Assembly: GCA_949358305.1 (NCBI GenBank)
Contig: OX442314.1
Coordinates: forward strand, 17,415,060 to 17,479,059
Reading direction: 5' to 3'
DNA length: 64,000 nt
Source of the DNA: Strigamia acuminata
Lineage: Eukaryota > Arthropoda > Chilopoda > Geophilomorpha > Linotaeniidae
Of the stretch, positions 2,790 through 63,309 are shown piece after piece. A program made the position numbers and the translations under genes. The number at the start of each line of letters is the position of its first letter. Positions within the stretch are counted from its first letter, which is position 1. Below the pieces are notes generated by a model that saw nothing but the letters and a program-made list of their open reading frames with translations, made no database searches and was not told the DNA's origin.

Positions 2790-5700
2790 CTATACGCTGG
2801 ACACTTCTCCACGTTCCTTCAGCAGACTTTTAAGCCGCGTCACTTCTTTATTAGACATGGATAAATCCGTTTGTAAGCGAATTTCTCTTTCTTTTAACTT
2901 CTTCACATCTCTTTGGCAGCTCTAAAATGTACGAAAAAGGAAATACAGTTTAATCCGAGTTGATTTTTCTTTTAAAGTAAATAATTATCACTGACCACAT
3001 TCTGCCTGAGCAAATCAAGTTTGTCGCACTTGAGTTTGTTTACCTCCAATTTGAGCGACTCGATTTGTTTCAATAATGCTACACGAATCAAATAAGAAAA
3101 TGATTATGAGTGTAATATGAATAAGTTGAAATGTTACCATCAGTTTCCATGGCAAAGGTACACCCACCCTCATCCAAGCAGAAACTGCACGACAAAGACA
3201 CACGCTTGTTAGGTGTCTCAGCAGATGACATGCTTTCCATGCCCGTATCAGAATCATCATTATGTACATATGCTACGTGTTCCAGCTCGATGCTGTTCAC
3301 GCTGGACGAATCAGATTCGGACATGGCCAAACGTGGAAACGTGTCACTAGAATTATAAAAAAAAAATTATAAAAAAAAAAAATCCAACCCTAACGTGAGA
3401 AACCTACCTAGTCCCTCTGTGAGGCGGAGTATCTGGACTAGAAACGGGAGTCGCTGGACTGCTGTTGGTGCGAAATGTTGATCGGACATTACTAGTTGAA
3501 TTCACATTATCCGATAACCTATTGCTTTCTCTGAAAGATTAAAAATAATTAATAAAAATAATTTAAAAATAGAAAAGAAAAAAATGTACTTTTTGCTTGA
3601 CGCTTCCAATTTGGACTGTGACAACCTTTTGTTAAGATTCTGGTTTTGAGGTGTTCTGTTATTCGAGGATGCCGTTTCCAATATGGGTGAATTGTTGTTA
3701 TTGGAAAGAGATCTCTTGGGCGGTACACGACTCGACAATGCTTTTCGCACCGTTTCGAGAAAGCGTGAGCTGCCTGTTGGTTCGGTCTTGGAACCGTCAG
3801 ATGAAGACTGGCCAGCGACTCCCCCGCAAAAGTCCCGAGTCTTCTGCTTCAGTTCCTCTACGAGAGACGTTAACAGAGCCGCGCGTGTGCGCAACTGCAA
3901 TAATTCAACAAAAACACTGTAGTACCAAGAAATGCTTAAAAAAAATTTTTTTTTTAAATCTTACCTCAAGTTTAGAAAATTTTTCTGCTTTATAACATGC
4001 AGTTTCGGCATTGATGAGCTTGGTGAGAAGAAATTCTCGAAATTCTGGTCCCCTTTTGAACACAGAAGGATTGGGCAGTGTAGGGCCAAAGAAGGGTACG
4101 TCATCTCTTGCAGTGACGCTCACTTTGTAGCGAGTGTTCGGACTGTTGGGATCGAGAACTTGGACCACAATGAAGGCGTGCAGGAAATGAGACGCAATCA
4201 TATCGGGAACGAATGGGGTGTTTGATTCTTGGAAAACAATAGCAACTATGTCGTTTCCGATATGCCGTTTTCTTTGCAACTGTTGCGGGTCTCCTTCTGT
4301 GTAAGGTAACAAAGTAGATACATGGAACATAAGCTCTCGTTCCCTGAATTTAATGAACACCGAGTCTTCGCCCGTTTGACCATACTGAATATCCAATCCT
4401 CCTCTGTAACTGTTCATTTAAAATTAAAAAAAAAAAATTAAATTGAAATTAAATAAAATAAATTTTTTAATTTTAATTTTTATTTTTATTTCATACCCTT
4501 TGAAGTCTTTTAGTTTTACGCGATCACCCAGCATATCTAAGAATTCATCCATAGCAGGACTGTGACTCATGTTTCCAAATAATTCCTCTTCTGTCGTCTG
4601 AAATTCAATTGACAATTTTTAATTCTCCACAAATGCGCGAAATAATTTTTATTTTTAAACTCACCTGACCGAATCTCTGATATATAATTCCGAATTTAAA
4701 AGTATTGACTAGAACATGTTCATCGTAATAAACTACCGTCTCGGAATTTCGAGGGAAAACAGACGGCATGAATTTTTCCACTGTTATGTCTTCATTTAAA
4801 AGCTTAAATTATGAAAACAGTAAATAAATTAGATCTGTCTAGATTCCAGACCAATCTCATGAAATTACACACCTTTGCCATCCGGGCTGGTGTAGGATTA
4901 TCACCCAAACAGGAGGACGGAACCAACTCATGAACTGTGCCGGATTTCATTCTTAATATTAATCTGTTATGTTCTTGTGACGATATAATTTCAGATTTGA
5001 CAGACAACATGAGCGGTCCGAGATTGTCATCAACAGCAAAAAAATTGCCGTGTTCCTTTAGAAAAAAAAATATATAAAAGTTAAGAGGGGGAAGAAAAGC
5101 AATTTAAGTCAGTGACAGATTCTGATGGGAATATCCATCACTTTCACTTACCCTTCCCAAAAAAAATCTCCGATAGCACTTGGCTGTTTCATCAATTTCA
5201 AATTTGGCTTTCCAATTGTGTTGAGGTACAATTGGATTCCCCTGACTGTCAAATGGACAGTCGTGTTCTAATCCGTCTACCCAGTAACCGCCTTTAGAGG
5301 GCAGAATGATCATTGGAAATGGCCCAGGTTTTTTCAGGATCTGAAAAATTAAAATATATAAAAGTTTAAGCATTATTATTATTTTTTTTATTTAAAAAAG
5401 CACTTTATTTTGCCTATTTTCGGTAAATATCAACATTTTTGCAGTCACACAATAATAAAATTTACTAAAAAAAAAAAGCACAGTATGGCCACTTTGCATA
5501 AATTGAACACTAAAGTTGTTTTTCTCTAAAAATGCATTTAAACTGAAATAGATATAAATAATTCATGCTGAAATTAAATTAAACTTCCCTAATCTATGTT
5601 GAAATAGAAGCAAAAAGGAAGCGAGACAAATGAAATGGAATTTTGCTACAGGAACAATTTCCCAGAGGGTAGACAAACGGAAAAAGTTGTTGTAAATTAA

Positions 5701-32700: not shown

Positions 32701-34436
32701 TTGTACCATTATCAACTTCTTTTTTCCTTTATTCGTTTTATGATGCACGTGACACATCTCACTCATAATTTAAATGCCATTAAAATTCCAAGTAAGTTTC
32801 TATTAAGTACCTTACCCAAATTAAGCTTTTTAAGCGTGACAAAAATGTAATGTTTAAAATCTAATATAGAATAATGTAAAATAGATAAAATTTTAACATT
32901 TTTTTTGTTCTTGGTCAAATATTTTCACATTTATTACGGAATACATAAGGTTACATCACAAACATTTTGATGTTTGTTCTCTTGTAACCTAAAGTGTTTG
33001 AGCATGCATAATTGATCGTTACAAACCCTAGGTAAACTTTGTAAATTTTGAACTTAAATTGTCAACCTCAAACCAAACAATCGTTTAAAACCTAAACTTA
33101 ATTTTCAGCTTTCAAACACGCAGTGTTTGTATAATTTAAAAACAAAAAGTCTAATGAAATAACAAAATGTTTTCTTACATTTCTTACCAAACTCTTCGTG
33201 CTTGAAATCAAGAAATCATTTATTCTCGTCATGCAATAAATCAAAAAAGAAAAGAAAAAGAAGAAGAAAAAAAACTTACTTTGTACATTTGAAGCAGTTT
33301 CGATGATACATCAAACCCTCCTCTTGAACCTTATCATGGGCCACAACAAAACCACAAACAGAGCACCTGTTGGGCAAAGGGAGGCGCAACTTCATCCCTG
33401 AAATGTTCTTGAGACTTGCACTCATGAATCCTTTGGCCTTAGACGTGACCTGCGTTCCTCCACCGCCTCCTCCTTCCCCTGCGGCTGGCGGGCCAGTCAG
33501 GTCCTGCGTGCTGCTGGAGAGGGTATCTTTCCTCGTCGACTTGTGTCCCAAACTCAATGATGTGTGACTCAGAGCCTTTTGCAACTTTAGCGTAAAGTTT
33601 GGACTACTAAAACTCTTGAGTGTGTAACGCGATTTGTCCGAATGAGGCGACCGAGTGGCCACCGGCGTGTGGCTTAAAGTGGCAGTAGGGGTAGAAGCAG
33701 AAGAGGCGGCAGGTGGCGCTGCACCGGATGACATCAACGTATTTGCAGTGAGCGATCTCTGGATGGCCGATGATACCACCACCGAGCAACTGGACGGCGA
33801 AGACCCTGAAGAACTCTGGTCCACACTTGGACCCCGTGTCATCAACTCCTCCTCGTCTTCCTGTAAATCTAATTTGAAGTCCTCACCTAAAAAAATACAA
33901 AAAAAAACAATATTTAATTCCAAATTCATTTTTTTCCTTCACTTTTTTTATTTTACCCAATCAACACACGCTTCTCAAACAACATACCCAATTCGATTAG
34001 ACTTAATTGTATTTTTACACAAACTATATTAGCTTCGTCAACACCACTGTCACTCCGCAACACAATCAATACAATAAGCCGCATTCAATCCGTCTCGATT
34101 GTTTTGATCGTCGTGACTGTGCTAATTTTTGCCCGATTTCTTCTCACAAATCAATGAAATCAAATTAAAGGGATGGTTTTTCGTACCTGCGATCAAAGAG
34201 CGTCCATTCAGATTGCCCATTGACACAGGTGTGGTCCAGAAATACAGCAGTTGGTCCATTTCTTGCGTACTCAAACTAGTGGGTGTTTGCGGATTCGAGG
34301 TGGAAGTGTGATCATCCTGACTCGAGGCGGACGGGTTTGGTGATCCAGGTGAGGCAGACAGACCTTGCGGGGAGTACAGGTCGAGATCTGAATTGCCCCC
34401 CATGTTTCCGAACAGGTCTGGCATCATGAGGTCCAT
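2790..34436 (-). CDS. RAP1GAP: Rap1 GTPase-activating protein with N-terminal LIM domain (17 exons)
   Basis: Coding exons in transcript order: 34436-34187, 33886-33280, 27929-27897, 6777-6684, 6348-6259, 6161-6111, 5923-5876, 5340-5152, 5055-4873, 4802-4665, 4597-4497, 4409-3965, 3894-3590, 3530-3408, 3346-3138, 3078-2996, 2921-2790. Phases match at every junction and the sum is 3081 nt (1026 aa). Seen: a Ser/Pro-rich N-terminus; a LIM finger at about 258-310; a GoLoco motif at about 332-350 ([19 protein letters not shown]); a RapGAP domain at about 392-745 with the catalytic asparagine in [14 protein letters not shown] (about N647); a C-terminal segment with [16 protein letters not shown], like vertebrate Rap1GAP; and a Lys/Leu coiled coil over the last 70 residues. 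Known for the family: RapGAP supplies an Asn to speed GTP hydrolysis by Rap, and GoLoco binds G-alpha-i/o-GDP. The donor at 3589 (gtacat) is weak. The LIM half is unlike the mammalian proteins I know. Confidence 0.9.
6259..6348 (-). other. RAP1GAP: GoLoco-motif exon of Rap1GAP
   Basis: This 90-nt exon is in phase 0 at both ends. It encodes 30 residues starting [13 protein letters not shown] and including the D-D-Q-R core that in GoLoco proteins inserts an Arg toward the bound GDP. In mammals the GoLoco-containing N-terminus distinguishes Rap1GAPII. Here it is an exact in-frame cassette, so it could be skipped without a frameshift. Confidence 0.88.
11863..11969 (-). CDS. RAP1GAP: candidate alternative first coding exon of Rap1GAP
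   Basis: On the minus strand an ATG at 11969 opens 35 codons ([20 protein letters not shown]..., Leu/Glu-rich, probably helical), followed by AG and a good donor, gtatgt. It ends in phase 2, exactly what the next exon (6777-6684) needs, giving an Arg codon at the join and reading on into [10 protein letters not shown]. Such a transcript would carry only the second half of the LIM finger and then the GoLoco and RapGAP domains. A GC-richer stretch with two CCAAT motifs lies upstream at about 12200-12370. The phase match and donor are seen; its use as a first exon is inference. Confidence 0.55.
18275..18333 (-). other. RAP1GAP: weaker candidate alternative first exon of Rap1GAP
   Basis: An ATG at 18333 opens 19 codons ([19 protein letters not shown]) ending in AG before a gtaaaa donor, again in phase 2 and compatible with the exon at 6777. 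A ccacgccc box lies about 40 bases upstream (18369-18376). The donor is only moderate and the peptide is not recognisable, so chance cannot be excluded. Confidence 0.25.
23767..23932 (-). other. unassigned exon-like open frame inside the Rap1GAP intron
   Basis: On the minus strand, after an acceptor-like tttatttttag, an open frame begins [19 protein letters not shown] and continues through a helical-looking segment ([16 protein letters not shown]). It stays open to about 23545, past an aataaa, but the later part is low-complexity. The amino-acid mix to about 23767 looks like real protein, but I do not recognise the family. It has no clear partner exons. It could be an exon of a nested gene, a retrocopy fragment or chance. 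Confidence 0.2.
27897..27929 (-). other. RAP1GAP: 33-nt microexon completing the LIM domain of Rap1GAP
   Basis: On the minus strand this reads ttttatag, then 33 bases, then gtaagt. It lies 5.3 kb downstream of the exon carrying the first half of the LIM finger (ends CFKCT, phase 2) and 21 kb upstream of the exon carrying the last half ([11 protein letters not shown], enters in phase 2). Translation in phase gives [12 protein letters not shown], which supplies the missing cysteine. The assembled finger is C-x2-C-x16-H-x2-C-x2-C-x2-C-x19-C-x2-H, a canonical LIM spacing. At 11 codons, its skipping keeps frame but removes a zinc ligand. Confidence 0.85.
29058..29110 (-). other. RAP1GAP: candidate alternative first exon of Rap1GAP with promoter-like upstream
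   Basis: An ATG at 29110 opens 17 codons ([17 protein letters not shown]) ending in AG before a strong donor, gtaagt, in phase 2. It could join the 33-nt microexon or the exon at 6777 in frame. Immediately upstream are an ETS-like ccggaag (29163-29169), a CCAAT box (29190-29194) and a perfect CRE, tgacgtca (29199-29206). The combination of a strong donor, the correct phase and a promoter-like block supports it; no homologous peptide is known to me. Confidence 0.4.
29111..29240 (-). promoter_or_regulatory. promoter-like block with CRE, CCAAT and ETS motifs
   Basis: Within 100 bases upstream of the candidate first exon ending at 29058 there are ccggaag, ccaat and the palindromic CRE tgacgtca at roughly 53, 80 and 90 bases from the ATG. 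The spacing resembles a TATA-less animal promoter. Motif matches alone are weak evidence; the neighbouring strong splice donor is the main reason to keep it. Confidence 0.35.
29421..29536 (+). rRNA. degenerate 18S rRNA 5'-end fragment (pseudogene)
   Basis: The sequence ctggttgatccttccagtag followed by tcatatgctcatctcaaa is the conserved start of eukaryotic 18S rRNA with a few substitutions (gcc to tcc, ttg to tca). A shortened match continues with aaactgcg and ttaacagttctccttaggtc, resembling the next conserved segment after a deletion. The rest of the rRNA is absent. It is an inserted, decayed fragment inside a protein-gene intron, not a functional rRNA gene. Confidence 0.75.
32068..32394. 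mobile_element. 327-bp MITE with long terminal inverted repeats and TA target site
   Basis: The left end (cagttcgcgcccggtatctt...) matches the reverse complement of the right end over about 77 bases with only a few differences. Both ends are flanked by TA, the target duplication of Tc1/mariner-type elements. The inside is AT-rich with no ORF. It is a non-autonomous DNA transposon; no matching transposase is in the window. Confidence 0.85.
33887..34186. other. Rap1GAP first coding intron
   Basis: A 300-base intron between the initiator exon and the Ser-rich/LIM exon. Its donor is gtacga and its acceptor is a T-rich tract ending in tag. The phase is 1 on both sides. Nothing else is seen in it. 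Confidence 0.7.
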
Positions 34437-42981: not shown

Positions 42982-45358
42982 TCAACCATTGACTGTTTTG
43001 ATGCCGTTGTCATCAATCTTTTTTTCTGCTGAGTTGGTCGCTAAAACCTTGACAGAGGGCAACACACATGTTTTTTGATGCACTTGTTGAGCAGAGAAAA
43101 GTGCCAAAGTCACATTTGGCTGATAATGTTGATCAAACCTAAAGCAACAAAACATTTAAAAATAAATCAACATTTAGTTGCATCGTATGAATGTAATCAC
43201 CATACCGATTTGTCTCCGAATGAAGTACAACACGCTCTGGATTGAGTAACACCGGGGGTCCATGATTCAAAAATGGAAGAACAGAATGAGAAATTCTAAA
43301 AATAAATGGAAAAGTGTTTTAAAAAATAAATATTTCTGTAAAAAAGAGAGCTGAGTGAGTGTATCATACTTGTCTCTATAAAAGGCGGTTAGTTGTGGTT
43401 GTGGCATTGACTGATGAGTCAACATTGGTTTGGCAAGTTTTCCCATTACAGAAGAGCATGGAACGGATACTTGAGACCACAAAGTTGGAACAGTCGGATA
43501 CCAGTAAGTAGTCACAGGATCAAATACATTAGACAAGTATCCTGGAGTAACTGTTTGTTCATCATACGTAAAATATTTTGCTTTTTTGGTCGAAATATTT
43601 ACTTCTTCTGTGTACTACAAAATAAAATACTCCGTATGTATTTAAAAAAAATCAATTTAGATATTCAAATTAAGCATTCAAAAAGAAAAAGAAAATAAAT
43701 ATAATTCTTAAAGTAAAAAAAACATTTTTGAAAAATTTGAAAAAGATTTGCTGTCTCCCATTCAAACACACACAAAAAAACCAGTAAACGACACCAAGTC
43801 CATTTGGGACATTCACTGCACTTTCTTCAATTGCCCATCTTGAGTTATAGACCCTTGTCTGATGTTGTATCCAGAAAGCTGATCATGTAGCTCTTTACAT
43901 CAACTAGGTACTATAAAGAGAATTCATGTAGTAGCTTTCTCACTGAACATACGAAACACGTCTATTGCATTTTCCTTATCACCCAAGTCCCTTTTTTGAA
44001 ACGCACAAGAACTGCACAATTCAAAGTTAAACAGTTATTAATACATGTACAATTTGCATTTATCAATTTCTGTTCTCCTAATCAGTCAGTCCACCCTTTA
44101 ATATTTTGTCAACAAAAATTGCGAAATAAACAAGCGGAGCTTTACGTTGGCTAATTGGGTTGTCGCCCAAGGACCTGGTCCATAAAAACTGTTAATTGCG
44201 AAGTACACCATCATGGGTTTAATTTTTTAAACCCCAGGGTTTGTTTTATAAAAGATCGATAAAATGATTTTGTGTTTACCAAATAAAAAATTATGTTGAA
44301 AGTCCCAGGGACCCGAAATCCACCATTCATCCCTGTCTAAGCTGCAGCTTAAAGAAAGTTTGAAAACTTAATTACCAGAAAACGTTTCTTACCATCTTTT
44401 TCTTATATTTATGATTGCTGTCATCGAAATACTTGTTCTTCATTTCATTCAATTTGATTTGTAGTTGCTCCAAGTTGACCTGATCTCTTGCCAAAAGCAC
44501 GTAAGCCCTCCAATTGGCTGAATCAAAGCCCCAGTGACAAGTCCGTTTTTCGAGGCCTTTATGGGCATGACGAACAAATTTTTGGGGCGAAAAATGGACG
44601 TTACACCCAAGACATTCGATACATAAAGCATCGGGAGAAAAGTAATATTCAGGAGTGTACAATCCCTTACATCTTCCAAAACACTTGTGATAAACTTTAA
44701 ACGAACTCTTCTTTCGTTTTAAGGCACCTAACACCACTGGTTGTTGATAAAGGAGGGCATTTGTCAACCTTTCAGCATCAGTTTTAGTGATGAGTCCACA
44801 ACTCGGAGCTCTAAATGGCAAAACTCCAGTTACCTTGAGCACCTCCAGTTGCTCGTGATTGCATTGTGAGCAGAAAATTTGCAGATCGTCGCAAACACCG
44901 TTTATTTGCTGCAAACTAAAATCTCTGAGAACACTGTTGAGGATCTGAGGTAGACATAACCGCTTTTCTCCTCCGACAACAAAACACGAGATCACATTTC
45001 CTTCCAATATCGTCTCGGTTTTCTCACTTCGACTTTGATCAGGTGCAGTTAAAATTGGCAGCTGTTGAATGGGAAAACGAGTGCACGATGGAAACGAATC
45101 GTGAATTGCTGATGTCGATGAAGGGTTCGGAACGAGTGCAATATTTTTCTTAATAGATTCGGTCAAAGGTATAAATGTACTGGTTTTTGACCCAAGTTGG
45201 TCGAATTTACTCACTCTACTTGCCGTCCTAGCGCCCAAATAACTGTCCGGCCCACTTAGGCTTGTTCTAGCAGCTTTCCGATAACTGTTGAGAACCTTCT
45301 TCAGACGAAGAGTTTCGCATGACGCCTCGCACGGTTTCATTTCCGACCCTTTCTTCAT
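42982..45358 (-). CDS. SKI: Ski/Sno family transcriptional co-regulator (4 exons)
   Basis: Exons: 45358-44393, 43614-43370, 43295-43206, 43138-42982; phases agree (0, 2, 2) and give 485 residues. Residues about 111-205 are the Ski/Sno/Dachshund domain ([20 protein letters not shown], then [18 protein letters not shown]). Residues about 218-290 are the SAND-like Smad4-binding domain with its Cys/His zinc set ([33 protein letters not shown]). Known for the family: these proteins bind Smads and recruit co-repressors, damping TGF-beta/BMP signalling in the nucleus. The last exon resembles vertebrate Ski in a [12 protein letters not shown]-like segment. The long C-terminal coiled coil of vertebrate Ski/SnoN was not found; the frame stops at 42982, so this is a short form or an isoform. 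Orthology to Ski versus SnoN is not resolved. Confidence 0.9.
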
Positions 45359-47566: not shown

Positions 47567-48561
47567 TTTAACTAATAAAACAAATTTTAATTAATTAATT
47601 TTTTTAGGTTTTTTTTTTCAGCCTGGCAAACGTTGGGGTGCGACTGTTATCAGCTCGTTATTCTTCTGAAGAACTAGAAGAAGAAGAACTAGAAGAAGAC
47701 GAGCTAGAAGAAGAAGAACCAGAAGAAGAAGAACCAGAAGAAGAAGAACCAGAAGAAGAAGAACCAGAAGAAGAAGAACCAGAAGAAGAAGAACCAGAAG
47801 AAGAGGTAGATGAAGAACTAGAAGAAGAGTCAGATTTTTCAGAAGAAGAACCAGAAGAAGAAGATTCAGAAGAAGAAGAACCAGAAGAAGAAGAACTAGA
47901 AGAAGAACTAGAAGAACTATCCAAATAGTTTAAAATTATAAAAGAAAAAAAAATTAAATTAAACTCAAACATAATATTTGTAGTGAGCATACGAATATAA
48001 TACCTGGGGTTTTTAGGCAAATAAATTTGACGAAAATCAAAATGGTAGCCTCCTTTGTGTCGGCCTGTCGAACTTGTGCCTTTTGGAAAACCATAGTCCA
48101 AGAAAGATTTCACGAAATAGTATACGGAATTGACAATGTCATCTTCAGTAAGGTTTTCTAAGAGTTTGCCTAGTTTTGCAACCCAATCTACTTCTGCTTT
48201 CTTTTTTTTGCCACCAAGTATACCTAAATTGGGTGAAAAAAAAATCATTATTTTCATTTAGATATGCATTAAAACCTCCTCTTGCCGATTGCCTTTTAAG
48301 TTTTTCTTTGATTGGTTTGCTGTGCGACCTTTACGGTTACCTTTGCGGTGTGGGTGAGTTTTTCCACGTTTACCATTATAATAATCTTAACACCGGTAGA
48401 AATGAGAATTGATATTTTAATTCTCGGTGAAATTTACACGGATGAATTCAAAACGTTTTATGTATTTTTGAATCTGCTGTGTTTATGCTTAACACACAAG
48501 AAATAATTTTGGCTAAAATTCTTACACATTTTTTCATTTTAACAATAAGTCGTGCAATTGC

Positions 48562-48741
48562 ATATGCGAAGTATGTGCACAAGCGACATCGCGCTTGCGA
48601 ATAACCACGATGCAAACGCGTCGCGCTTGCTCATACACACATTATTTACAAGCGCGATGTCGCGAGTATTCATAAGCGCTACGTCGCAGTTGCAAATGCT
48701 ATGCGTCGCTGCAGAGAATATCGCGCGTGGAATAGCGTGCC
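48562..48741. mobile_element. 180-bp CpG-rich insertion in an intron of gene A
   Basis: Aligning this intron with the same intron of genes B (about 56370) and C (about 61445), all three read gtgcaa/gtggaattgc and then ctgaattttttattt, but A has 180 extra bases between. The insert is rich in gcg/cgc, unlike its surroundings, and contains the inverted pair cgacatcgcgcttg / caagcgcgatgtcg. It looks like a small foldback insertion acquired after the duplication. Confidence 0.6.
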
Positions 48742-49854
48742 CTAATTTTTTATTTAAAAAATAGACATAGTGGTAGGACCATCCATCCTTTGATTCTGTA
48801 ATTACCAAACTATTCCAACGTTAGGTTTGTTCAAAGTTTCTGTAAACAGCACAAACAAATGTAAAATACACGCCTAACTATGAATGTGTGTACGGCAATT
48901 TCGTTTTAGGGCCTCTTTCAGTTCAATCTTTTCTTTGGATTTTATGAATAAATGGCGCTTAAAAAGTTTTTCATTTTTACTCAATCAACGAATTGTGGCC
49001 CACTTATTTGAACACAATTACATGTATTTACTCACGTTTAAGGAGCTGAATGCTTCGTTTGAAAGCATTGTAACAGTTGGAAAATTTGACCCCTCGATTT
49101 AGCTTGCATAAACAATTTCAAAAACACACATGTAAGCGTAACAAATACGTGATTTGCAGACGAAACAAAAGATACAGTAAGTGCCCTTGTGTGCAATTGA
49201 CATTTTAGATTTTTGTGTTTTCATTTTTGAATTTGGTATTAAGATACCAGTATGCAGACTGTAGCTACTTACTGCTTTCCTAACCTTAGTTTTCCGCGAA
49301 AGTTTACAGCATGAAAAGTTTCAACAGCGAAATATTTCATCATTTATTGGAAGCAAATTCCATAAATTATTTATGAAATCTTTTTTTTTAAATTTCTAAG
49401 TTGTTATTTATGTGCTCTGATAATTTTTTGTACTTACGACCATGAAAATCTTCATCGCTCTCTTTCAGGACCTGTAAAAAGCGGATATAAGCATATGTGG
49501 GAAATGTGTAGCGCCTACACATATTTTGGCATCACTGACTTTGACTTTCTTTCCTTTTCCTTTTGCTTTTGCTGCCCGTCCTTGATTAAACTCCTGGTAA
49601 ATTCTTGGAAAGGGTGGACCCTGGAAAGAATAATTAAAAAACTTGCAAAGACAAGTATATAAATCACTAACTAAACCTCCAGCATCCTAGGAAGTTTATT
49701 TTGATCAAAACATAAGTAATCGAATTTTTGGGCAATTAAAACTGAGCTCATTCAATAATTTGTGATGGTGCTGATTGTTTTCTTAAAAAATAATAAAGAA
49801 TTGCGTCATAAACAAATAGCCTTCAACCGTCCAGCCAATGATAACAATCTTCAA

Positions 49855-49945
49855 TGCTTAGCTATGCCAACGAAAGTTTGCCTAGCTACGCCAACAAAAG
49901 TTTGCTTAGCTATGCCAACGAAAGTTTGCTTAGCTATACCAACGA
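49855..49945. repeat. intronic 24-bp tandem repeat in gene A
   Basis: About four copies of cttagctatgccaacgaaag + tttg lie in the intron between exons 2 and 3. The same motif, shortened to 19 bases and expanded, occupies the equivalent intron of gene B. Confidence 0.75.
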
Positions 49946-50189
49946 AAATTAAAAATATTGAACCAACAATAGAAGAATTTATGATTAATGGCTACATACC
50001 AGATCCGTAGCTTTGCCTGATACACCACTATTCTTCTGTGTGGATACATTCTAGCAAAAATAATATATACAATGAAGTGAATGAATTAGTTTTAAAAAGT
50101 ATTGAAAATAGCAACTATTAGTCATTACTTTTGACAAAAATCCAATTAAAACAGTCAGGAAAAGTGCTATTTGGATGTTCGCAAACATC

Positions 50190-52799
50190 CTGGTGGTTAA
50201 CACATATGATACTATACTACCTTATTGTGAACTAACTATAACTTAATGTTCCTTTGTTCCATGCATTCTTTAATTTTAATTTGAATATAAATTTTAAATA
50301 CAAATAACACATGCTTTGAAGCGGATAATTTTTTATAACTCTTTATTAATATTTTAGATTTCTTGAAAAAAAAATAAACTATAGTATCCCCGAAATTGTA
50401 ATACTATAAAACGGATATGTTTCACTGCAGAAATAATTTTGGTTTTGTGTACAATGATGTTACTTATGGTACTGCTGATGGCATTTGCTCCAAACAATAC
50501 GGTTTCAGTGTTAATTACAGCCAAGTTCTTAATTTGCTGTAGTGACAAAATTCTGTGTAATCGCTGCAGTGAAAAGTGACAAAATTTAGAGCATTTATTG
50601 TAAGAATAAGATTGTTCGGAACCAATTGTATTATTTATTTGTTCTGAGAAATTTTAACATGCTGATCCGGTACAATTTCACTCATATTTGATTTATAGCT
50701 TTGTCTGCACTCTTTATGTCTGTAATATTAATAAACTGGAATACACGTGGTTGTTTGTCGTCATCATTGATTGGACAATAAGTTGTACAAATTTTATGAG
50801 TTTGTATCTCGGACGACAGTAAATTATCAAGGATGGTAACACTCAACCAAGTAAGTTAGCCTTACGTTCCAACAACACAATTACTCAGGCAGTTACTATA
50901 TTCAATGTTTTTATCCAGGACCTATCAATACTGAAGAAGAAAAACAGTTGGAAACTTGGCATTGAGCGTCACCCTCGAATTTCGACAACAATGGAGGCTT
51001 GATCTAACAAAAATACTGTCAAAGAAGCAACAATTCAAATTGAATTTGTTCTGTCAATTGAGGTTGACCTATTTTAGATTTGCTTCATTTTTGCTGTTTA
51101 TTTCTAAGCCAAAAATTAATAGATTTGGATGATTTTTTTTGTATGTTTCTGTTTTTTAGTGCGAATAACTTATCAATTCGACATGTCGTTTTTTTAATGA
51201 GCACAAAAACGATCTTGTGTTGACTTTTTCACAAATTTAGAAAACAGTTGGACAAAAATATTTGGAATTTTAAAAAATGATAGATAAGAGATACAGAACT
51301 CTAAAGCAAGTAGAACAAACAGCAAAAATATAGATTTAACATTTCCAACCATTTCATCTGATGTCAATAGATAAGAAATAATCATTTTTGAAATGCTATC
51401 CATCAAAACAATCACACTTCACTGCCAGATATGATTCCTAAACTAGAGAATTTCAAAAATCAATGCTGCTAAACAACTTTCTAATTTGAAATTAGTCCAA
51501 ATGTCAGGTGATATTTGGGAATAAAGTTTAAAATTGGTGTCAGGCTAAAATAAATATAAGCTTGCATCACTTTAGTATTATTCTATACATTGATTGGCAC
51601 TGAACTACAGTGACTGAAGTTATGTAATCATTCTAAGCTAATCTCCAGTACAGTACGTTTACATAAATTAAGTACCATATTTCTTGTAGGCGGAGTTTTA
51701 GTATATTTTATCCTGTTTAGTCGAGGTCATAAAAATCGTCCCAGTCCAGCTTGAAGCTCACCTGCAGAAAGAGAGTTTTTGGCTTTATCCGCCAAGTAGT
51801 GCAAAAATTCACTGATATGTTATGACAAATTGACATTTAAATGATGTCAGGTGCAGGTGATTGAGTGACATCATGTAAATAATGTGGGATATTTTATTCT
51901 AGATTTTGCATATATTAAATATTCGATGTAAAATAGGTTTAAGGATTTGTTTATTGTATTTTGGTAACAGCGCATGAGTTGCATATGTTTGTTGTTGCAA
52001 GTGTGCGTTGTTTTCACACAATTGGTTTCTGAATGCGTAAAATGGTGTTGTTAGGAGTTTTGTCAAGTTGTGTTTACTGGGTGAATACTGCTAAATGCCT
52101 CACAAAGTGATAACAGAGGACGGTTGTGTTTTGGTGGTTGTGTGTCTGGAGCAGTGTGACCAGAAAGGCATTAAGGATTTGTGAAAATAGTGAAAGATTT
52201 CAAATAAAGCTTAAGGAAGAAATAAAGAGCCAACAATGGAACAATAAAAGCTAAACCTAACGTGCTCTGTTTAATAGCGCGAATAACTCATCAATTCGAT
52301 ATAATCGTTATAACGAATCGATTTTTTGGGTCCCTTGCAATTCGTTATACAAAGAGTTCCGACTGTATTGAATGTGGATCGGAAGTCATCTTTTTCGTGC
52401 AAAATACATCCAATTCTGTTTTACAAATACATTCCAGAAAAAACCATGAAAAAACATGGAAAAAAATACAAGGAAAATTCTTTAAATATTTCCTAAACAA
52501 GGACAATTACCTCAATATTTTGTACTCCGTAAAAAATTACAGTCAATGGAGATATTTTTCGTGTTAAATCAAAAGAAATCGTGTAAAAACAGAATTGTAC
52601 AGTAATTTACTTTCTAAATTGTGTTATATCAGAACTGCAATTATTCCAGAAGTGTTTGTCATGTTATGTGTGGGGGGTTATAAATATATTTTATTCAGTT
52701 AAATAACATTTATCGGTAAAAGATTTTGCAGTTAAATTAGATTTATGTCATTTTAATTTTGAACTAATAAAACAAAAAAAATTATCTATTATATTTATC
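50190..52799. other. gene A upstream region and spacer to gene B
   Basis: The first 600 bases upstream of gene A (to about 50800) match the upstream regions of B (60240-60500) and C (63310-63980), so promoters were duplicated with the genes. Shared blocks include ccttattgtgaactaactat in A and B and actataaaac with cactgcagaaataa in A and C. From 50.9 to 52.6 kb I see nothing recognisable. At 52680-52790 the 3' flank of gene B begins. Confidence 0.5.
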
Positions 52800-55700
52800 T
52801 TAAAATGCTCTGGTATTATATGTATCTTCGTATGCTCTGGGTTTATGTTTATCTTCATATGCTCTAGTATTATATGTATCTTCATATGCTCTAGTATTAT
52901 ATGTATCTTCGTATGCTCTGGGTTTATGTTTATCTTCATATGCTCTGGTATTGTATGTATCTTCATATGCTCTGGTATTATATGTATCTTCGTATGCTCT
53001 AGGTTTATGTTTATCTTCATATGCTCTGGTATTGTATGTATCTTCATATGCTCTGGTATTATATGTATCTTCGTATGCTCTGGGTTTATGTTTATCTTCA
53101 TATGCTCTGGTATTATATGTATCTTCATATGCTCTGGTATTATATGTATCTTCGTATGCTCTGGGTTTATGTTTATCTTCATATGCTCTAGTATTATATG
53201 TATCTTCATATGCTCTGGTGTTATATGTATCTTCGTATGCTCTGGGTTTATGTTTATCTTCATATGCTCTGGTATTATATGTATCTTCGTATGCTCTGGG
53301 TTTATGTTTATCTTCTAATGCTCTGGTATTATATGTATCTTCATATGCTCTGGTATTATATGTATCTTCGTATGCTCTAGGTTTATGTTTATCTTCATAT
53401 GCTCTAGTATTATATGTATCTTCATATGCTCTGGTATTATATGTATCTTCGTATGCTCTGGGTTTATGTTTATCTTCATATGCTCTGGTATTATATGTAT
53501 CTTCATATGCTCTGGTATTATATGTATCTTCGTATGCTCTGGGTTTATGTTTATCTTCATATGCTCTAGTATTATATGTATCTTCATATGCTCTGGTATT
53601 ATATGTATCTTCGTATGCTCTGGGTTTATGTTTATCTTCATATGCTCTGGTATTATATGTATCTTCGTATGCTCTGGGTTTATGTTTATCTTCTAATGCT
53701 CTGGTATTATATGTATCTTCATATGCTCTGGTATTATATGTATCTTCGTATGCTCTGGGTTTATGTTTATCTTCATATGCTCTGGTATTATATGTATCTT
53801 CATATGCTCTGGTATTATATGTATCTTCGTATGCTCTGGGTTTATGTTTATCTTCATATGCTCTAGTATTATATGTATCTTCATATGCTCTGGTATTATA
53901 TGTATCTTCGTATGCTCTGGGTTTATGTTTATCTTCATATGCTCTGGTATTATATGTATCTTCATATGCTCTGGTATTATATGTATCTTCGTATGCTCTG
54001 GGTTTATGTTTATCTTCATATGCTCTAGTATTATATGTATCTTCATATGCTCTGGTATTATATGTATCTTCGTATGCTCTGGGTTTATGTTTATCTTCAT
54101 ATGCTCTGGTATTATATGTATCTTCGTATGCTCTGGGTTTATGTTTATCTTCTAATGCTCTGGTATTATATGTATCTTCATATGCTCTGGTATTATATGT
54201 ATCTTCGTATGCTCTGGGTTTATGTTTATCTTCATATGCTCTGGTATTATATGTATCTTCATATGCTCTGGTATTATATGTATCTTCGTATGCTCTGGGT
54301 TTATGTTTATCTTCATATGCTCTAGTATTATATGTATCTTCATATGCTCTGGTATTATATGTATCTTCGTATGCTCTGGGTTTATGTTTATCTTCATATG
54401 CTCTGGTATTATATGTATCTTCATATGCTCTGGTATTATATGTATCTTCGTATGCTCTGGGTTTATGTTTATCTTCATATGCTCTGGTATTATATGTATC
54501 TTCATATGCTCTGGTATTATATGTATCTTCGTATGCTCTGGGTTTATGTTTATCTTCATATGCTCTAGTATTATATGTATCTTCATATGCTCTGGTATTA
54601 TATGTATCTTCGTATGCTCTGGGTTTATGTTTATCTTCATATGCTCTGGTATTATATGTATCTTCATATGCTCTGGTATTATATGTATCTTCGTATGCTC
54701 TGGGTTTATGTTTATCTTCATATGCTCTGGTATTATATGTATCTTCATATGCTCTGGTATTATATGTATCTTCGTATGCTCTGGGTTTATGTTTATCTTC
54801 ATATGCTCTAGTATTATATGTATCTTCATATGCTCTGGTATTATATGTATCTTCGTATGCTCTGGGTTTATGTTTATCTTCATATGCTCTGGTATTATAT
54901 GTATCTTCATATGCTCTGGTATTATATGTATCTTCGTATGCTCTGGGTTTATGTTTATCTTCATATGCTCTGGTATTATATGTATCTTCATATGCTCTGG
55001 TATTATATGTATCTTCGTATGCTCTGGGTTTATGTTTATCTGCATATGCTCTGGTATTATATGTATCTTCGTATGCTCTGGGTTTATGTTTATCTTCATA
55101 TGCTCTGGTATTATATGTATCTTCATATGCTCTGGTATTATATGTATCTTCGTATGCTCTGGGTTTATGTTTATCTTCATATGCTCTAGTATTATATGTA
55201 TCTTTATATGCTCTGGTATTATATGTATCTTCGTATGCTCTGGGTTTATGTTTATCTTCATATGCTCTGGTATTATATGTATCTTCGTATGCTCTGGTAT
55301 TATATGTATCTTCGTATGCTCTGGGTTTATGTTTATCTTCATATGCTCTGGTATTATATGTATCTTCATATGCTCTGGTATTATATGTATCTTCGTATGC
55401 TCTGGGTTTATGTTTATCTTCATATGCTCTGGTATTATATGTATCTTCGTATGCTCTGGGTTTTTGTTTATCTTTGTATGCTCTGGTATTATATGTGTCT
55501 TCGTATGCTCTGGTATTATATGTATCTTCGTATGCTCTACGTTTTTGTTTATCTTCATATGCTCTGGTATTATATGTATCTTCGTATGCTCTGGGTTTTT
55601 GTTTATCTTTGTATGCTCTGGTATTATATGTGTCTTCGTATGCTCTGGTATTATATGTATCTTCGTATGCTCTGCGTTTTTGTTTATCTTCATATGCTCT

Positions 55701-58700
55701 GGTATTATATGTATCTTCGTATGCTCTGATATCAGAAGAACTATAAGAGACAGAAGAAGAAGAGCCAGAAGAAGAAGAGCCAGAAGAAGAAGAATTATAC
55801 AGGACATAAAATTATATTAGAAAAAAGAAATCATAATATTTGTAGTGAGCATACGAATGTGATACCTGGCATCTTTAGACAAATAATTTTGACAAAAATC
55901 AAAAACTTACTTCGCTTTGTTTCGATCTGCCGGACTTCTATCTTTTGACAATCTATATTCTTCACTAAGGTTTTCTATGAGTTTGCCTAGTTTTGCAATC
56001 CAGTCTACTTCTGCTTCATTTTTTTTGCCACCAGCTTTACCTAAATTTGGTGGGAAAAAAATCATTATTTTCATTTAGATATGCATTAAAACCTCCTCCT
56101 GCCGATTGCCTTTTAAGTTTTTCTTTGATTGGTTTGCTGTGCGACCTTTACGGTTACCTTTGCGGTTTGGGTGAGTTTTTCTACGTTTACCATTATAATA
56201 ACTTTAATAACAATAGAAATGAGAATTGATATCAATTCTCATTTCTATTGTATTTTAACTCTAGATGAAATTTACACGAAAGAAACCTAAACATTTTTTT
56301 TGTGTTTTTGAATTTGCTATTTTGGCTGAAATTGTTACATATTTTTTCATTTTAACAGTAATAAGGCGTGGAATTGCCTGAATTTTTTATTTAAAAATGA
56401 ACATGGTTTTAAGATCATCCATCCTTTGATCCTGCAGTTACTAAACTATTAAAAAAACACTGAATTTGTTTCCAACATTAGGTTTGTTCAAAAGTTTCTG
56501 CAAACAGCAAAAACTTATGTAAAATATACGCCTAACAATGAATGTTTGCGCGGTAATTTCATTTTAGGGCCTGTTTTCTGTTCAATCTTTTCTTTGGATC
56601 TTATGATTAAATGGCGATTAAAAAGTTCTACATTTTTACTTAATCAACAAATTGTGGCCCACTTATTCGTACACAATTGTGGCCCACTTATTCGAACACA
56701 ATTGTAGCCCACTTATTCGAACACAATTGTGCTTTTATTAATGTTTTAGCAGGTGGATGCTTTGCTTGAAAGCATTGAAGGTATTATTCTACTTTACCGG
56801 CCATCTCTCAGATCATCTCCAAAATTGGGATGTACAGGTAGGGTGGGAAATCGAATGGCGTTAACGGTTTTGGGGGCAAACGGAAACGGATGCAAAAAAC
56901 AGGAGATTAATGGCAGTAGGTTTATACTTGTTAGATTAGATTAAGCATTGGAATCAAATGGACCATTGTTGCCGTTGTTTATTGTTATTGTGGTCGCAAG
57001 TTCCACAGCATTAGCGGGCAGGGAATTTAGGGGGGGGGGGGTGGCAGAGCGCCCTTAAATAAGAAAATAAAAAGCACGTGCATAACAATGCTGGAGAGAA
57101 TGATGACAGCTAACAATAAAATTAAAAAATTGAAATAATGGACCATATGATGTCAATCAAAAGTAGTATACAGTAACAGGTCGTTAATCTCCTGTTTTCC
57201 GGTTAGTTGTCTCTCAAAATTAATCAGTGAGGTCACGCTTTATTGCACTCCCAAAAAAAACATGAACAAATGTCTGAATTCTGAAGAATGAATAGGCCTT
57301 CAGTTAAATGTTTACAATATGGGAATACTTAACAGTGCCCTTGTGTGCAACAGACAATTTTAAATTTTTGTTTTCATTTTTGTGTTTTTGGAATTTGGCA
57401 TTAAGATGCCAGTGTGCAGACTGTAGCTACTTACCGTTTTCCAAACCTTTAGTTTTCCGCGAAAGTTTTCAGCTTGAAAAGTTTCAACAGCGAAATATAT
57501 CATCATTTATTGGAAGAAAGTTCCAAAAATGATTTAATTTTTTTTTTTAATTTCTAAGTTGTTAGTTGTGTGCTCCGATAATTTTTTGTACTTACGGCCA
57601 AAATCTTCACTGCTCTCTCTGAGACCCTGTAAAAAACGGGTATAAGCACATGTGGGAAATGTGTAGCGCCTATACATACCATCATTGACATGACATCTGT
57701 TTTTTCCGGTCGTTTATCACTATCCATATAAACTCTTGGAAAGGATGAATCCTGGAAAGAATGATTAAAAAACTTACAAAGCAAAGTAACTGAATTAGAT
57801 TTTAAAAAGTATTGAAATAACAACTATTAGTTCTTTCGTCAAAGTGACAATTGCAATTGAAAAAAATTGAACACAAATCTAGTTCTGCCTTTGGTTTTAT
57901 TTTGACCAAAACATAAGTAATCGAATTTTTGGGCAATTAAACTAAGCTCATTCAATAATCTATGATGGTGCTGATAGTTTTTTTAAAAAAAACCTTGAAG
58001 AATTGTGTCATAAACAAATAGCCTTCGACTTTCAAGCCAATAGTAACAACCTTCAATGCTTAGCTATGCCAACAAAACTTTGCTTTATGACGATCATGCA
58101 GTCGCTCATCGATATAGCGACAAATTACGCCAATAGATGGCGCTGGCGACCACAGGCGGCAAATTCAAGTAGAATTTGTCACTTGATATAAAACCACATA
58201 AAATGCAACTTTTATGTGATTTTAAGGCAGAGAGTCGACTTTATCTTATATTTATGGCAATAAATATAGATATTATGTTGTTTTGTGATAACTCTGCAAA
58301 GTTACCTCAAAACTAGGTTTAGGGGATTAAATCTCCCCCTCGCACCTGCTCCAAGCGTGGACCCCCGCGGATCAAGTTGAAAGACTTAATCCAAAAGTGT
58401 TCCTCGCTATCCAGTTCCTGTCCCGACCTAGCAGAGAGCTATGGTCTGTCTTTTTGACCACCTGGACTGAAAATGTGTCCTGAGTATCCCATCACCTGGA
58501 CCAGTGATTGGGGGGATTTGCAGGACCATTGCTCTCATTGGAGCAATGGCCAAGCTATTGTTTTCCCCGAGTATATACTTCCTCGCAACAGGAAGTAGCT
58601 TGCTCTTGACCAGATATTTTGACTATATGTTTTCTTGAGCCCTTTCTACTACTTCAGTGTTATGTTGATTGCGCAAACACAAGCTTGCCTGTTGATTGCG

Positions 58701-60234
58701 CAGCCAATGCCCCTTATACTGCGGGCCTATGAGAACATACATGCGGCGCACACTTGACGTGGAGATGGGTGATATGATGCCTCCATGTCCGGGTGCCCGA
58801 TGACGGCTGTGTGGCCGTGAGGAGATCAGGTCGCGGCGATGAGTAGTAAGAATCCCGTCGGGCCGGATATATTTCAACAAGTGTTCCACAAGGCCTGCCA
58901 GTTACAGTAAACCACGGCTGCCGAACAGCGTGTCGAAAATGTAACATTAGGGTTGAAATAACTAAACTCGGAAAAGTTTAGTTAGATTAAATCCCCAACT
59001 GGTTTATGTCACAACTCAGCATTGTGCATAAACATGGATACTTCTTCCAGAACTGTGCAAAACTGAAGACTAGTTACATTAGCATTTACTTGCCAGTAAA
59101 TGTGTAGCTAAATTGCCAACTTTATGTAAGCAGAATTATTACGAGTATTTACTGAAAAGTAATACTCTAATAAATACATCCATTACACGGAACCAGAAGT
59201 TATGATTGTAAACTCGCAACAGTTTACTCTCATATGAAGAACCATTTGACGTATCACACCAATTATAAATGTCTTAAAACATTTATAAGAGGTCAATTGG
59301 TAAATGGCTCTCACAAGCCATTTAAACCAATAACCGCCCCAAGTTTGTGGCGATGCAGATACAGTCAACCGGAAGTCCTCGGATACTAACCTTTTCATTA
59401 CAGATTTGAACCAGACCCCGATGTACAATTAGGACCAAATAATCAACCGATTCAGACGACATCTTACCCACCCGATGAAGCCGACTTGATATTATCATAG
59501 AGCCGTTTAGGCGACTGTATGTATAGTTAATTGACCAATTTATACAGCCAATTGTCGGCATAGTTACTGTATAACTGTATTTTATGCAAATTGATTAATA
59601 TAATCACTTTACGGTGATTATATTTATATATCAATAAATATGTTATGTGTTGATAACTGAATGCCTCATTATTTTACCCAGTTCACACTTTAGGTTTTGT
59701 CAATCCTATCTCTCAACTACTGAATAGATAGACTAGCTTGTTATGCCAAAATACATATTTTGAGCGGATAGCGTCATCGAAAGGTCATCGTCACAGCTTA
59801 GTTATGCCTCTTATGCCATCGAAACTTTGCTTAGCTATGCCAACGAAAGTTTGCTTAGCCAACGAAAGTTTGCTTAGCCAACGGAAGTTTGCTTAGCCAA
59901 CGAAAGTTTGCTTAGCCAACGAAAGTTTGCTTAGCCAACGAAAGTTTGCTTAGCCAACGAAAGTTTGCTGAGCCAACGAAAGTTTGCTTAGCCAACAAAA
60001 ATTAAAAAATATTGAAACAACAATACAAGAATTTATGATTAATAGCTATATACCTGCTTCTTCCCGAAGCCATAATTCTTGTGTGTGGATACATTCTTGT
60101 AAAAATAAAATACGCAAAGAAGTGGATGAATTAGTTTTAAAAAAGTATTGAAAATAATAACTCTTAGTCATTACTTTTGACAAAAATCCAATTAAAACAG
60201 TCAGGAAAAGTGCGATTTGAATGTTTGCAAACAT
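52800..60234 (-). CDS. gene B: secreted protein with about 108 nonapeptide repeats (YEDTYNTRA / YEDKHKPRA)
   Basis: Exons: 60234-60175 (signal peptide, MFANIQIALFLTVLIGFLSK), 60095-60054, 57751-57680, 57626-57596, 56040-55911, 55740-52800. Phases agree (0, 0, 0, 1, 2) and the total is 3276 nt, 1091 aa. Exon 5 keeps the AEVDWIAKLGKL segment of the paralogues but ends early at a new gtaagt donor. Exon 6 uses a tcttatag acceptor; the ancestral acceptor (gatag in A and C) is mutated to tataa, leaving in-frame Ser/Gly codons just upstream as a fossil of the old tail. The 979-codon tail repeats 9 residues in the order T-type, T-type, K-type, with no stop. Tyr is nearly one residue in five, and acidic and basic residues almost balance. 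The tail frame lacks Met. Family unknown; an extracellular structural or adhesive role is inference only. Confidence 0.72.
52803..55735. repeat. 27-bp coding tandem repeat with 81-bp higher-order unit
   Basis: About 108 copies of a 27-mer (plus strand: tgctctggtattatatgtat + cttcgta) alternate with a variant containing gggtttatgttta, mostly in the pattern two plus one (81 bp). All length variation is in multiples of 27, and no indel breaks the frame. A rarer variant (ttctaatgctc) recurs near 53313, 53691 and 54150, at 14 and 17 units apart, showing longer-range duplication. The right end (55440-55735) has diverged units with ttttgtttatc. Confidence 0.95.
56210..56251. repeat. perfect 42-bp palindrome in a gene B intron
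   Basis: acaatagaaatgagaattga is followed directly by its reverse complement, with no loop. The same intron in gene A has only the left half (gtagaaatgagaattgatat), so the palindrome arose in B after the duplication. Confidence 0.8.
58084..59800. mobile_element. about 1.7-kb unclassified insertion in gene B intron 2
   Basis: Gene A and gene B introns align through aatgcttagctatgccaac, but B then has about 1.7 kb before the cttagctatgcc repeats resume. The insert is GC-richer (58310-58960), has no long ORF, and ends in an AT-rich stretch with aataaa-like signals near 59630. tgacgat occurs near both ends in inverted orientation, too short to be convincing as a terminal repeat. It is probably a non-autonomous transposon or LTR remnant; the family is unknown. 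Confidence 0.5.
59835..59998. repeat. intronic 19-bp tandem repeat in gene B
   Basis: About eight copies of cttagccaacgaaagtttg run head to tail in the intron between exons 2 and 3, with occasional single-base variants. It is a shortened, expanded form of the 24-bp repeat in gene A. Confidence 0.85.
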
Positions 60235-60566: not shown

Positions 60567-63309
60567 TTATTCTTCTGAAGAACTAGAAGATGATGAACTA
60601 GAAGACGAACTAGAAGAAGAAGAAGAACTAGAAGAAGAATCAGAAAAAGAACTAGAAGAAGAATCAGAAGAAGAACTAGAAGAAGAAGAACCAGAAGAAG
60701 GACGACCAGAAGAAAGACGACCAGAAGAAAAAGAACTATCCAGGTCATTTAAAATGATAAAAGAAAAAAGAAATTTAAATTAAACTCAAATCACAATATT
60801 TGTAGTGGCATACGAATATAATACCTGGGGTTTTTAGGCAAATAAATTTGACGAAAATCAAAATGGTAGCCTCCTTTGTGTCGGCCTGTCGAACTCGTGC
60901 CTTTTGGAAAACCATAGTCCAAGAAAGATTTCACGAAATAATATACGGAATTGACAATGTCATCTTCAGTAAGGTTTTCTAAGAGTTTGCCTAGTTTTGC
61001 AACCCAGTCTACTTCTGCTTTATAATTTTGTCCACTAACTTTGTCTAAATTTGATGAAAAAAATATCATTATTTTGATTTAAATATGTATTGAAACCTCC
61101 TCCTAATCTTTGCAGTTGCCTCTTGCCTTTTATGTTTTTATTTTGCTGGTTTGCTGTGCGAGAACTGGGTCTTTTTGTGGTCTTATCACGATTACCTTTA
61201 CGGTACGGGTGATGTGGGCCATGTCTACCACCTTCATAATAACCTTGATAACGATAAAAAGAAGAATTGAGATTTTAGTTTTGAGTGAAATTTACACTCA
61301 TGGCATACCGGTGTTCAAAAATATGTATTTTTGTGTTTTTTTGAATTTTATGATTTTATGCTTTAACACCAGAAATTTTTTAACACCTATTTTGGCTGAA
61401 TTTCGTATATGCCTACATTTTTTTCATTATAACAGTAAGTCGTGCAAATGTCTGAATTTTTTATTTCACAAATGGACATGGAGTAGCAGGATGAGTTTAA
61501 TTTTAAAAAATCTAAAAACTAAAAACTAAAAACTGCCCATATCTCTGCAACGGTGCCAGATATGCAAATTCCAACCGGGAGAATCGATTTTTTTAGGTCA
61601 TTTTATGTCTAATCAGCACATTTTTAGCACTTTTTCTTAAAAATTTAGTACAAAAGATTTGAGGAGTAGTCATTTTTAGACTAAATAAATGTTGCTCTAC
61701 AAGTTTACAATTGGAGATTTCTGTCTATCTCTAACGGTTTTCGAGATAATTTTCCAATGACCTTGAAGGAACATCCCAAGGTCAAATTTTGGGTCACCAA
61801 AAGATTGCCCCACCCAACTTTAATACTTTGCCATCATTAGATTAGATGCATTGTCAGCCCTTTCAGAAATATTTAGTAGAGAACCAGACTTTTTTACCAC
61901 CCTATATAAAATCTAAAGTAATCATCGTCTTTTCGTGGGAAATTGTGGGATTTTTTCCGGGGCCCTCGATGGGTGGTGACTCCCAAGCAACTGCTGATTT
62001 TTCTTATGCATAAATCCGGCCCTGCCCCTCAATATTTAACTTGCACAAACCATTTCAAAAACACACACATACAAACAAAACAAATATGTGATTTGTCAAA
62101 GTAATAATTCTATCACTTGTTCGCTGAAGAGAATTTTAGATTTTTGTTTTTTCATGATTGAATTTGGCATTAAGATATAGTGTGCAGACTACTTTCCAAA
62201 ACCATAAGGTTTCGTCGATGTTTTCAGCATGAAAATGTTCTACAGCGAAATATTTCATCATTTATTGGAAGCAAATTCCATAAATAATTTATAAATTTTT
62301 TTCTTTTTTAATTTATAAGTTGCTAGTTATGTGATTCGGTCATTTATTGTACTTACGTCCCTCAAAATCTTCATTGCTCTCGCTGATAAAACCCTGCAAA
62401 TAAAAATTTTTTAAAAAAAAAATCAGGTATAAGCATGTGTGAAATTTGTCATCTTTCTGGAATCACTTGCTGTCGGCGTTCCCGGATCTCTATCAAAATC
62501 CAAAGAATTTTTTTTAAATAACTCCGGTATGGAGTAAATCTGGAGAGAATAATTAAAAGTTTGCAAAGAAAAGTAAATAAATTAGATTTTAACAAGTTCT
62601 TTTTTTTTGTCAAAAAAAAATTGAACATAAATCTCGTTTTGCCTTTGCTTTTAAGTAATGGACTCCACTAAAAAAAAACCCCATTGATATAAGTTACCCT
62701 TTTTAGTTTGCATTAAGAGTTGATTTACATACATATCCTGCAAATTCCGTCTTAAATTTTGTAAGATTTTTTTAACTCTTGAACTGCTTAGAGTTATCAA
62801 TTTTAAAAACATGATGAATCCACCAAACACTACTTGTAATCCAGTCTCAGTCACATGGAATCAGATCCCTAGCTAAACTTCCAATAATCTTTAGAGTTTA
62901 TTTTGATGGAAAACGTCAGACTTACAAAAATATAATCGCTTTTATGCGGAATTATAAATTGAGCTCCTTCAATAAACTCTGATGGTGCTGTTGCTTAGCT
63001 TTGCCAAAGAAATTTTGGTTAGCTATAACATCAAATATTAAAAAGAATTGAACTAACAATACGGTAGTCTACTATTAATTTATTATTGATGATTACATAC
63101 CTTCTCTGCGTATTCAATGTCTTTGCTTCTCAGTCTAGCTTTATACATCTGGCTAAACATTTGTGTGGATGGAATCTGAAAAAATAAAACATGCAAAGAA
63201 TTAAATAAATTATATTTAAAAAAATATTAGAACAACAATTAGACATTACTTTTGACAAAATGACAATGAATCCAAGGAAGAAAATTGATATTTGGATGTT
63301 TAGCAACAT
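60567..63309 (-). CDS. gene C: secreted protein with Ser-rich tail
   Basis: Exons: 63309-63250 (signal peptide, MLLNIQISIFFLGFIVILSK), 63175-63101, an exon-3 relic beginning at 62539, 62393-62357, 61044-60825, 60735-60567. The donor of exon 3, present in gene B as gtatgtatagg, is deleted here; skipping exon 3 keeps the frame and gives 186 residues. Exon 5 is the same length as in gene A and its last 60-odd residues are identical (AEVDWVAKLGKLLENLTEDD to the end), although the introns have diverged. The tail is about 55 residues, Ser-rich with Gly-Arg and Asp, ending SSSSEE. Predicted to be secreted; function unknown. It is the most upstream of the three tandem copies. Confidence 0.6.

Follow-up and report, generated by a model that had tools for sequence, protein, structure and literature searches.

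The closest described relatives of the gene considered here are two uncharacterised proteins of the centipede Strigamia maritima, T1IS48 (expectation value, E, 8e-83) and T1IL22 (E 1e-17), and a search of 5.77 billion proteins returned no further family protein from outside Strigamia acuminata. The published assembly of S. acuminata comprises 237.5 Mb, with chromosomes of 66.99, 37.79, 19.35, 16.99, 16.15, 12.25 and 9.84 Mb and 158 scaffolds, as given in the genome report (PMC10556566), which also announces an annotation based on available RNA-Seq. An alternate haplotype carries the accession GCA_949357715.1. We analysed a window of 64,000 nucleotides (the whole stretch, positions 17,415,060 to 17,479,059 of contig OX442314.1) on the largest chromosome of this species, in which three tandem genes of the family, here called copies A, B and C, lie in the same orientation on the minus strand. 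Searched at the protein level with exon 6 of copy C, the genome yielded at least 18 matching places, namely A, B and C plus clusters at C1:45.8 Mb, C1:20.05-20.09 Mb and C9:5.59-5.63 Mb, and many of these relatives carry internal repeats and a C-terminal domain ending in YFFDFRQIYLP, followed by a short Ser/acidic exon. T1IS48 (P0001) and the S. acuminata copies at C1:20.05 Mb, C1:45.8 Mb and C9:5.6 Mb share with A and C the (L)SEDDIAKF...YFFDFRQIYLP domain, the short Ser/acidic last exon and internal coding repeats. Some of these T1IS48-like copies have 27-bp repeats encoding nonapeptides and several have a signal-type first exon; the repeats lie in the large exon and are built of QQGN or GGGFNANINQNN units, whereas none has the YEDTYNTRA/YEDKHKPRA tail that distinguishes the middle gene of the window, copy B (60234-52800). 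In copy B a 27-bp minisatellite makes up the whole last exon. We judge it moderately probable that copy B is a coding, re-spliced gene, and favour this reading over that of a pseudogene with a minisatellite.

The last exon of copy B (52800..55740) reads SSDIRA, then 108 nonapeptide units and finally a stop in a degenerate 109th unit. The array consists of exactly 108 units of 27 bp with zero indels, which translate as 69 copies of YEDTYNTRA, 30 of YEDKHKPRA and 9 variants. Superimposed on the basic unit is a higher-order period of 81 bp. The array is also duplicated internally on a larger scale: when it is shifted by 17 units, 47 of 91 units match, with 23 in the longest unbroken run. The minus-strand open reading frame (ORF) that holds the array (52800-55811) spans 1003 codons plus a stop and is free of Met throughout; counted from the proposed acceptor, the frame is open for 979 codons, up to a TAA within the degenerate unit. 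An earlier note on this DNA had described about 108 nonapeptides in a stop-free minus-strand frame of 979 codons without Met, and both the unit count and the ORF bear this out. A genome-wide scan with a degenerate 34-base pattern, allowing up to 3 mismatches, showed no match elsewhere: it gave 108 minus-strand matches and 0 on the other strand, and among the pattern matches listed all places fall inside the array. The array lies between a remnant of the family's tail exon and the family's 3' untranslated region (UTR).

A spliced ORF of 1091 residues can be built for copy B, very close to the roughly 1090 residues proposed before. Its six exons have AG/GT borders and join in phase up to the stop in the last degenerate unit. 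Exon 1 (60175..60234) encodes the signal-peptide-like MFANIQIALFLTVLIGFLSK. Exon 2 (60054..60095) is of phase 0, exon 3 (57680..57751) has a donor that by eye appears to have been lost in A and C, and exon 4 (57596..57626) precedes a relic of exon 5 (56158..56201). This relic is one base short of frame since its acceptor AG moved by one, and it must be skipped: among the 32 subsets of inner exons 4 reach the end, all with exons 4 and 6 and all without exon 5. The AG sites upstream of exon 5 were inspected by eye for one that could bring the exon back into frame; the in-phase site leads into a stop, and this rescue was rejected. Exon 6 (55911..56040), which the earlier note had counted as exon 5, is a remnant of the conserved domain and is followed by a TAA (55907..55909) that replaces the invariant Tyr codon of (Y)FFDFRQIY and forms part of a new donor, GTAAGT. 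The ancestral acceptor of the last exon, ..ATAG/TTCTTC, reads ATAA in copy B, its AG (55795..55796) having become AA as judged by eye against A and C, and the next AG is at 55741. The leftover Ser/Gly tail codons in between (55741..55794) would now serve as the polypyrimidine tract of that new acceptor. The junction 55911/55740 is canonical and in phase, as had been claimed, but the accompanying claim that the array joins an intact spliced gene did not hold, as exon 5 must be left out, a TAA stands at the Tyr and the domain is cut. Beyond the array, the 3' UTR (52640..52780) is homologous to that of copy C over 104 of 138 aligned bases and contains an AATAAA at 52690-52695, found by eye.

The two neighbours provide the frame of reference for these changes. 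Copy A (60567..63309, minus strand, 202 residues) lies 0.3 kb from copy B and copy C (47658..50188, minus strand, 222 residues) lies 2.6 kb from it; exon 3 is left out of both models. Exon order and phases are common to all three copies, the introns align between A and C and between B and C, the 3' UTR aligns between B and C, and the exons of B align with those of A and C. In contrast to B, A and C have a Ser-rich tail ending in SSEE, a usable exon 5 and a full domain, and have apparently lost the exon 3 donor. The array frame of copy B is the ancestral tail frame (SSSSGSSSSGSSSSVSYSSSDIRAYED) and the sole frame with an exon path open to the end, and this identity with the ancestral frame is the strongest argument for it. 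The earlier note had picked the same frame and had described leftover Ser/Gly codons continuous with the array; the codons at 55741-55794 do share the array frame. The phase of the tail exon, 2, is retained in copy B, but the ancestral acceptor is lost and the Ser codons are mostly intronic. T1IS48 ends in FFDFRQIYLPEDSSQDSSSEEDY, which fits the proposed last junction.

Growth of coding nonapeptides is a habit of at least part of the family, since 27-bp repeats within an open coding exon were seen in all three of the relatives, out of 17, that were put through Tandem Repeats Finder (L018, L019 and L020); L018 also has 54- and 81-bp periods. We propose the following route, for which the array, its frame, the exon phases, the homologous flanks and the family are observed, and transcription, exon skipping, secretion and function are inferred. 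Copy B belongs to a repeat-prone Strigamia family of secreted proteins in which short coding repeats keep growing; the 27-bp unit would have taken over the last exon with its Ser-rich tail and grown in the ancestral frame to 108 nonapeptides, while the old domain decayed. Exon 5 would be skipped, a hairpin and the shifted AG concealing its acceptor. A perfect 40-bp palindrome (56211..56250, no strand) sits directly upstream of exon 5, over its polypyrimidine tract, and is present in B alone among 18 family pieces. When folded as RNA, this region of B forms a 19-pair hairpin (z-score -4.3, with 1 of 200 shuffles as good), compared with z-scores of -1.0 for C and -0.4 for A. Hairpins across an acceptor favour skipping, and the B-specific palindrome could cause the skipping of exon 5. 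Such skipping would be harmless to the frame because the exon has phases 1-1, and it is frame-neutral in A and C too, whose frames are open with or without exon 5. The donor made at the nonsense site would then join the new acceptor within the Ser tract. The proposal as a whole is that a minisatellite turned a tail exon into a new secreted Tyr-rich polymer of nearly 1000 residues, and that the gene shed its ancestral domain by means of a donor made by nonsense, a skipped exon and a new acceptor, giving a recent, satellite-born structural protein in a secretory gene. It is put forward tentatively, as quite possible though not quite probable.

The serious rival to a coding copy B is that B is a decaying pseudogene, in whose former last exon the 27-bp minisatellite grew neutrally, the open frame reflecting a young, homogenised array with a unit that is stop-free by chance. 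We regard this as a real possibility, if on the improbable side, and it is serious because the splice frame of exon 5, the FFDF motif, a 45-nt piece of the domain and the original acceptor of the last exon are all gone from B. Several observations weigh against a coding copy B, both among these lesions and among the frame and substitution tests that follow. Inclusion of exon 5 stops translation at residue 95, whereas the exon is usable in phase in A and C, and it still has an AG and a good donor in B. The donor that ends exon 6 at 55911 shares bases with a TAA, at a site where Tyr is retained in 17 of 17 other genomic copies and in T1IS48, with L022 counted by eye alignment, as its match in the exon 6 search ends short of the site. 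Between anchors shared with A and C the domain measures 71 nt in place of 116 nt, the lost 45 nt including the stretch aligned with IVNSVYYFVKSFLD, and with the FFDF motif gone as well B lacks a complete C-terminal YFFDFRQIY domain. Copy B is thus a derived descendant that has lost the defining domain of the family and not a standard member. Three splice changes are needed at once, and some copies at C1:45.8 Mb likewise look decayed by eye. Yet every junction used in B is AG/GT and in phase, and the last exon, at 2941 nt, runs without a stop or frameshift before its end. Moreover, the nonsense bases at the Tyr site at once form a consensus donor of the correct phase. By eye, 12 of the 17 other genomic copies have a complete domain; L024 and L025 have a shortened one, and L010, L012 and L022 have an altered motif. 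Loss of the helical stretch alone need not mean a dead gene, since L024 and L025 have lost much the same stretch in an exon that is otherwise open.

Openness alone is weak evidence for coding, because the plus strand is equally open and shuffled units often are too. Of the six frames of the 27-bp consensus five are open, a shuffled 27-mer is open in a given frame 43% of the time and a shuffled 81-mer 11%, and on the plus strand the frame at 52804-55746 has 980 codons without a stop. Random substitution in the array frame creates a stop in 7.4% of cases, and the chance of none over 16 changes is 0.29. The earlier note had also drawn on ttctaatgctc variants that place stops in the competing minus frame; three such stops are present, in units 59, 76 and 90, but each stands in the same local unit order, and they count as one event because they are apparently copies of one variant. 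Changes within unit classes were synonymous in 7 of 12 cases against 4.2 expected (p 0.035), whereas the competing minus frame has 0 of 12, for changes that were picked by hand, with copies of one change counted once and a nonsynonymous TAT-to-TTA double change omitted. This first version also omitted the four differences between classes, and their addition gives 7 of 16 (p 0.22); the plus-strand in-register frame scores an equal 7 of 12 (p 0.17). The test has little power, since a coding control, the nine nonapeptide units of L018, has two third-position changes among six variable columns and thus no excess. Upstream of the array, exon 1 of B differs from that of C by 3 synonymous and 0 nonsynonymous changes, leaving the protein identical, which argues against a pseudogene. 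Exon 6 points the other way, its nonsynonymous divergence (dN 0.23) not being below its synonymous divergence (dS 0.19), and hence without constraint. For exons 1, 2, 4, 5 and 6 combined, with exon 3 left out, dN/dS between B and C is 0.64. Selection on B is detectable at the signal exon at most. With 0.13-0.05 substitutions per site, an upstream coding sequence of 333 bases would escape stops in 19-50% of cases under neutral drift. Arrays of 27 bp also arise outside the family. Of 31 matches in a protein search of the genome, 15 lie in the array and 16 outside; the two strongest of the latter (E 6e-13 and 3e-7) are unrelated 27-bp arrays, and the other 14 have E 0.01 to 0.91. Like the array of copy B, these two, L066 and L067, have a 27-bp period and are open in more than one frame, whereas their units are unrelated and they lie outside this gene family. 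L067 has 14.2 copies; L066 (C1:28829800-28831300) has 16.7 copies and lies within a frame, by eye that of a Tc1-like transposase, that is open throughout, so that open passage can be accidental. That the array is instead a plain satellite unlinked to the gene, or is expressed from the plus strand, we consider very improbable. The 980-codon plus-strand frame and its equal synonymous score would suit such a reading, but the array is bordered exactly by the remnant of the family's tail exon on one side and by the family's 3' UTR on the other. The plus-frame translation is also free of Met (plus-strand exons were not searched for), and a plain satellite would be expected to disperse elsewhere, yet the 108 pattern matches equal the number of units and lie on one strand.

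If the coding, re-spliced copy B is indeed expressed, the cluster would offer a traceable origin of a repeat polymer within a single set of tandem genes, with the un-expanded sisters A and C as before-and-after controls, and a visible route by which a protein may swap a domain for a repeat. If B is a pseudogene, the locus serves as a warning that a minisatellite can produce 979 open codons that join genuine exons in phase. The gene also draws attention to a family of secreted proteins that evolves fast in geophilomorph centipedes.

Several further features of the family and of the window were noted. The copies L011, L013-L021, L024 and L025, at C1:20.05-20.09 Mb and C9:5.59-5.63 Mb, have open main exons with at least one QLESSGGGFNANINQNN unit of about 40 residues, some of them with QQGN nonapeptides. 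Patches of high identity occur between A and C (60736-61044 and 47917-48223), where exon 6 has a dS of 0.09 and intron 6 is 92% identical, and between B and C (56041-56201 and 48224-48385), where intron 5 is 96.6% identical. The patches stand beside more diverged stretches (73-87%) and suggest gene conversion among the tandem copies. The coding GGGFNANINQNN stretch of relatives now resembles, by eye, a short intron in A, B and C (61045-61195, 56041-56157 and 48224-48340), with AAAG/GTAA and TTTAG borders, a possible intronisation of a frameshifted exon in all three copies. Intron 2 of B and of C contains similar short arrays of 19-bp and 24-bp units with AACGAAAGTT (59839-60000 and 49855-49947), and intron 2 of B also includes about 1.7 kb (58070-59800) with no blastn match in A or C, perhaps a mobile element. 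Elsewhere in the window, a 28-bp array of 10 copies (732-1010) lies within a minus-strand frame of 323 codons from stop to stop, and the minus-strand ORFs 3905-4417, 33276-33938 and 44372-45358 resemble, by eye, Rap1GAP, a LIM-domain protein and SKI/SnoN.

Comparison with known proteins brought little beyond the family itself. At E 0.001, neither the array (among 3753 candidates) nor an alignment of A, B and C (among 3011 candidates) had a protein match, with candidates confined to 0.55 to 1.75 times the query length, a range outside which array-bearing relatives, like unannotated ones, could be missed. The search with the array showed no relation to a known adhesive protein, and no Pfam family matched it. 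Four family ORFs, T1IS48, T1IL22 and the array had no match above the curated cut-off in the Pfam and NCBIfam libraries applied to each, and weak partial matches to DUF7501, PKD_3, SPX and TFIIA (Pfam) and to thymidylate synthase and ComGG (NCBIfam) were set aside as chance. T1IS48 had 0 matches in the PDB. Literature searches with YEDTYNTRA and T1IS48 gave no match, and literature on geophilomorph secretions and Strigamia glue named no such protein in titles or the starts of abstracts. Within these searches, the nonapeptide is undescribed, as the earlier note had supposed.

The predicted product of copy B is Cys-free, with a mass of about 134 kDa and an isoelectric point of about 6, and its array is 18% Tyr with 189 Lys and Arg against 212 Asp and Glu residues. 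Fifteen units modelled without an alignment gave a predicted local distance difference test (pLDDT) score of 33 and no fold, which is weak evidence but fits disorder, and the product is probably disordered. Geophilomorph sternal glands are described as defensive (PMC11170834), and another report calls it common for centipedes to have adhesive secretions (PMC8056527). The product of copy B would be a secreted Tyr-rich, charge-balanced polymer, perhaps a gland component that is sticky or that hardens, and most simply a structural or sticky constituent of a secretion that is cross-linked through Tyr. Adhesives of the mussel foot protein 1 type are long secreted proteins built of short peptide repeats that bear Tyr, Lys, Thr and Pro. 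No sequence relation between these adhesives and the array was found, a direct mussel comparison not having been made, and it is in the style of its repeats that the predicted product of copy B resembles them.

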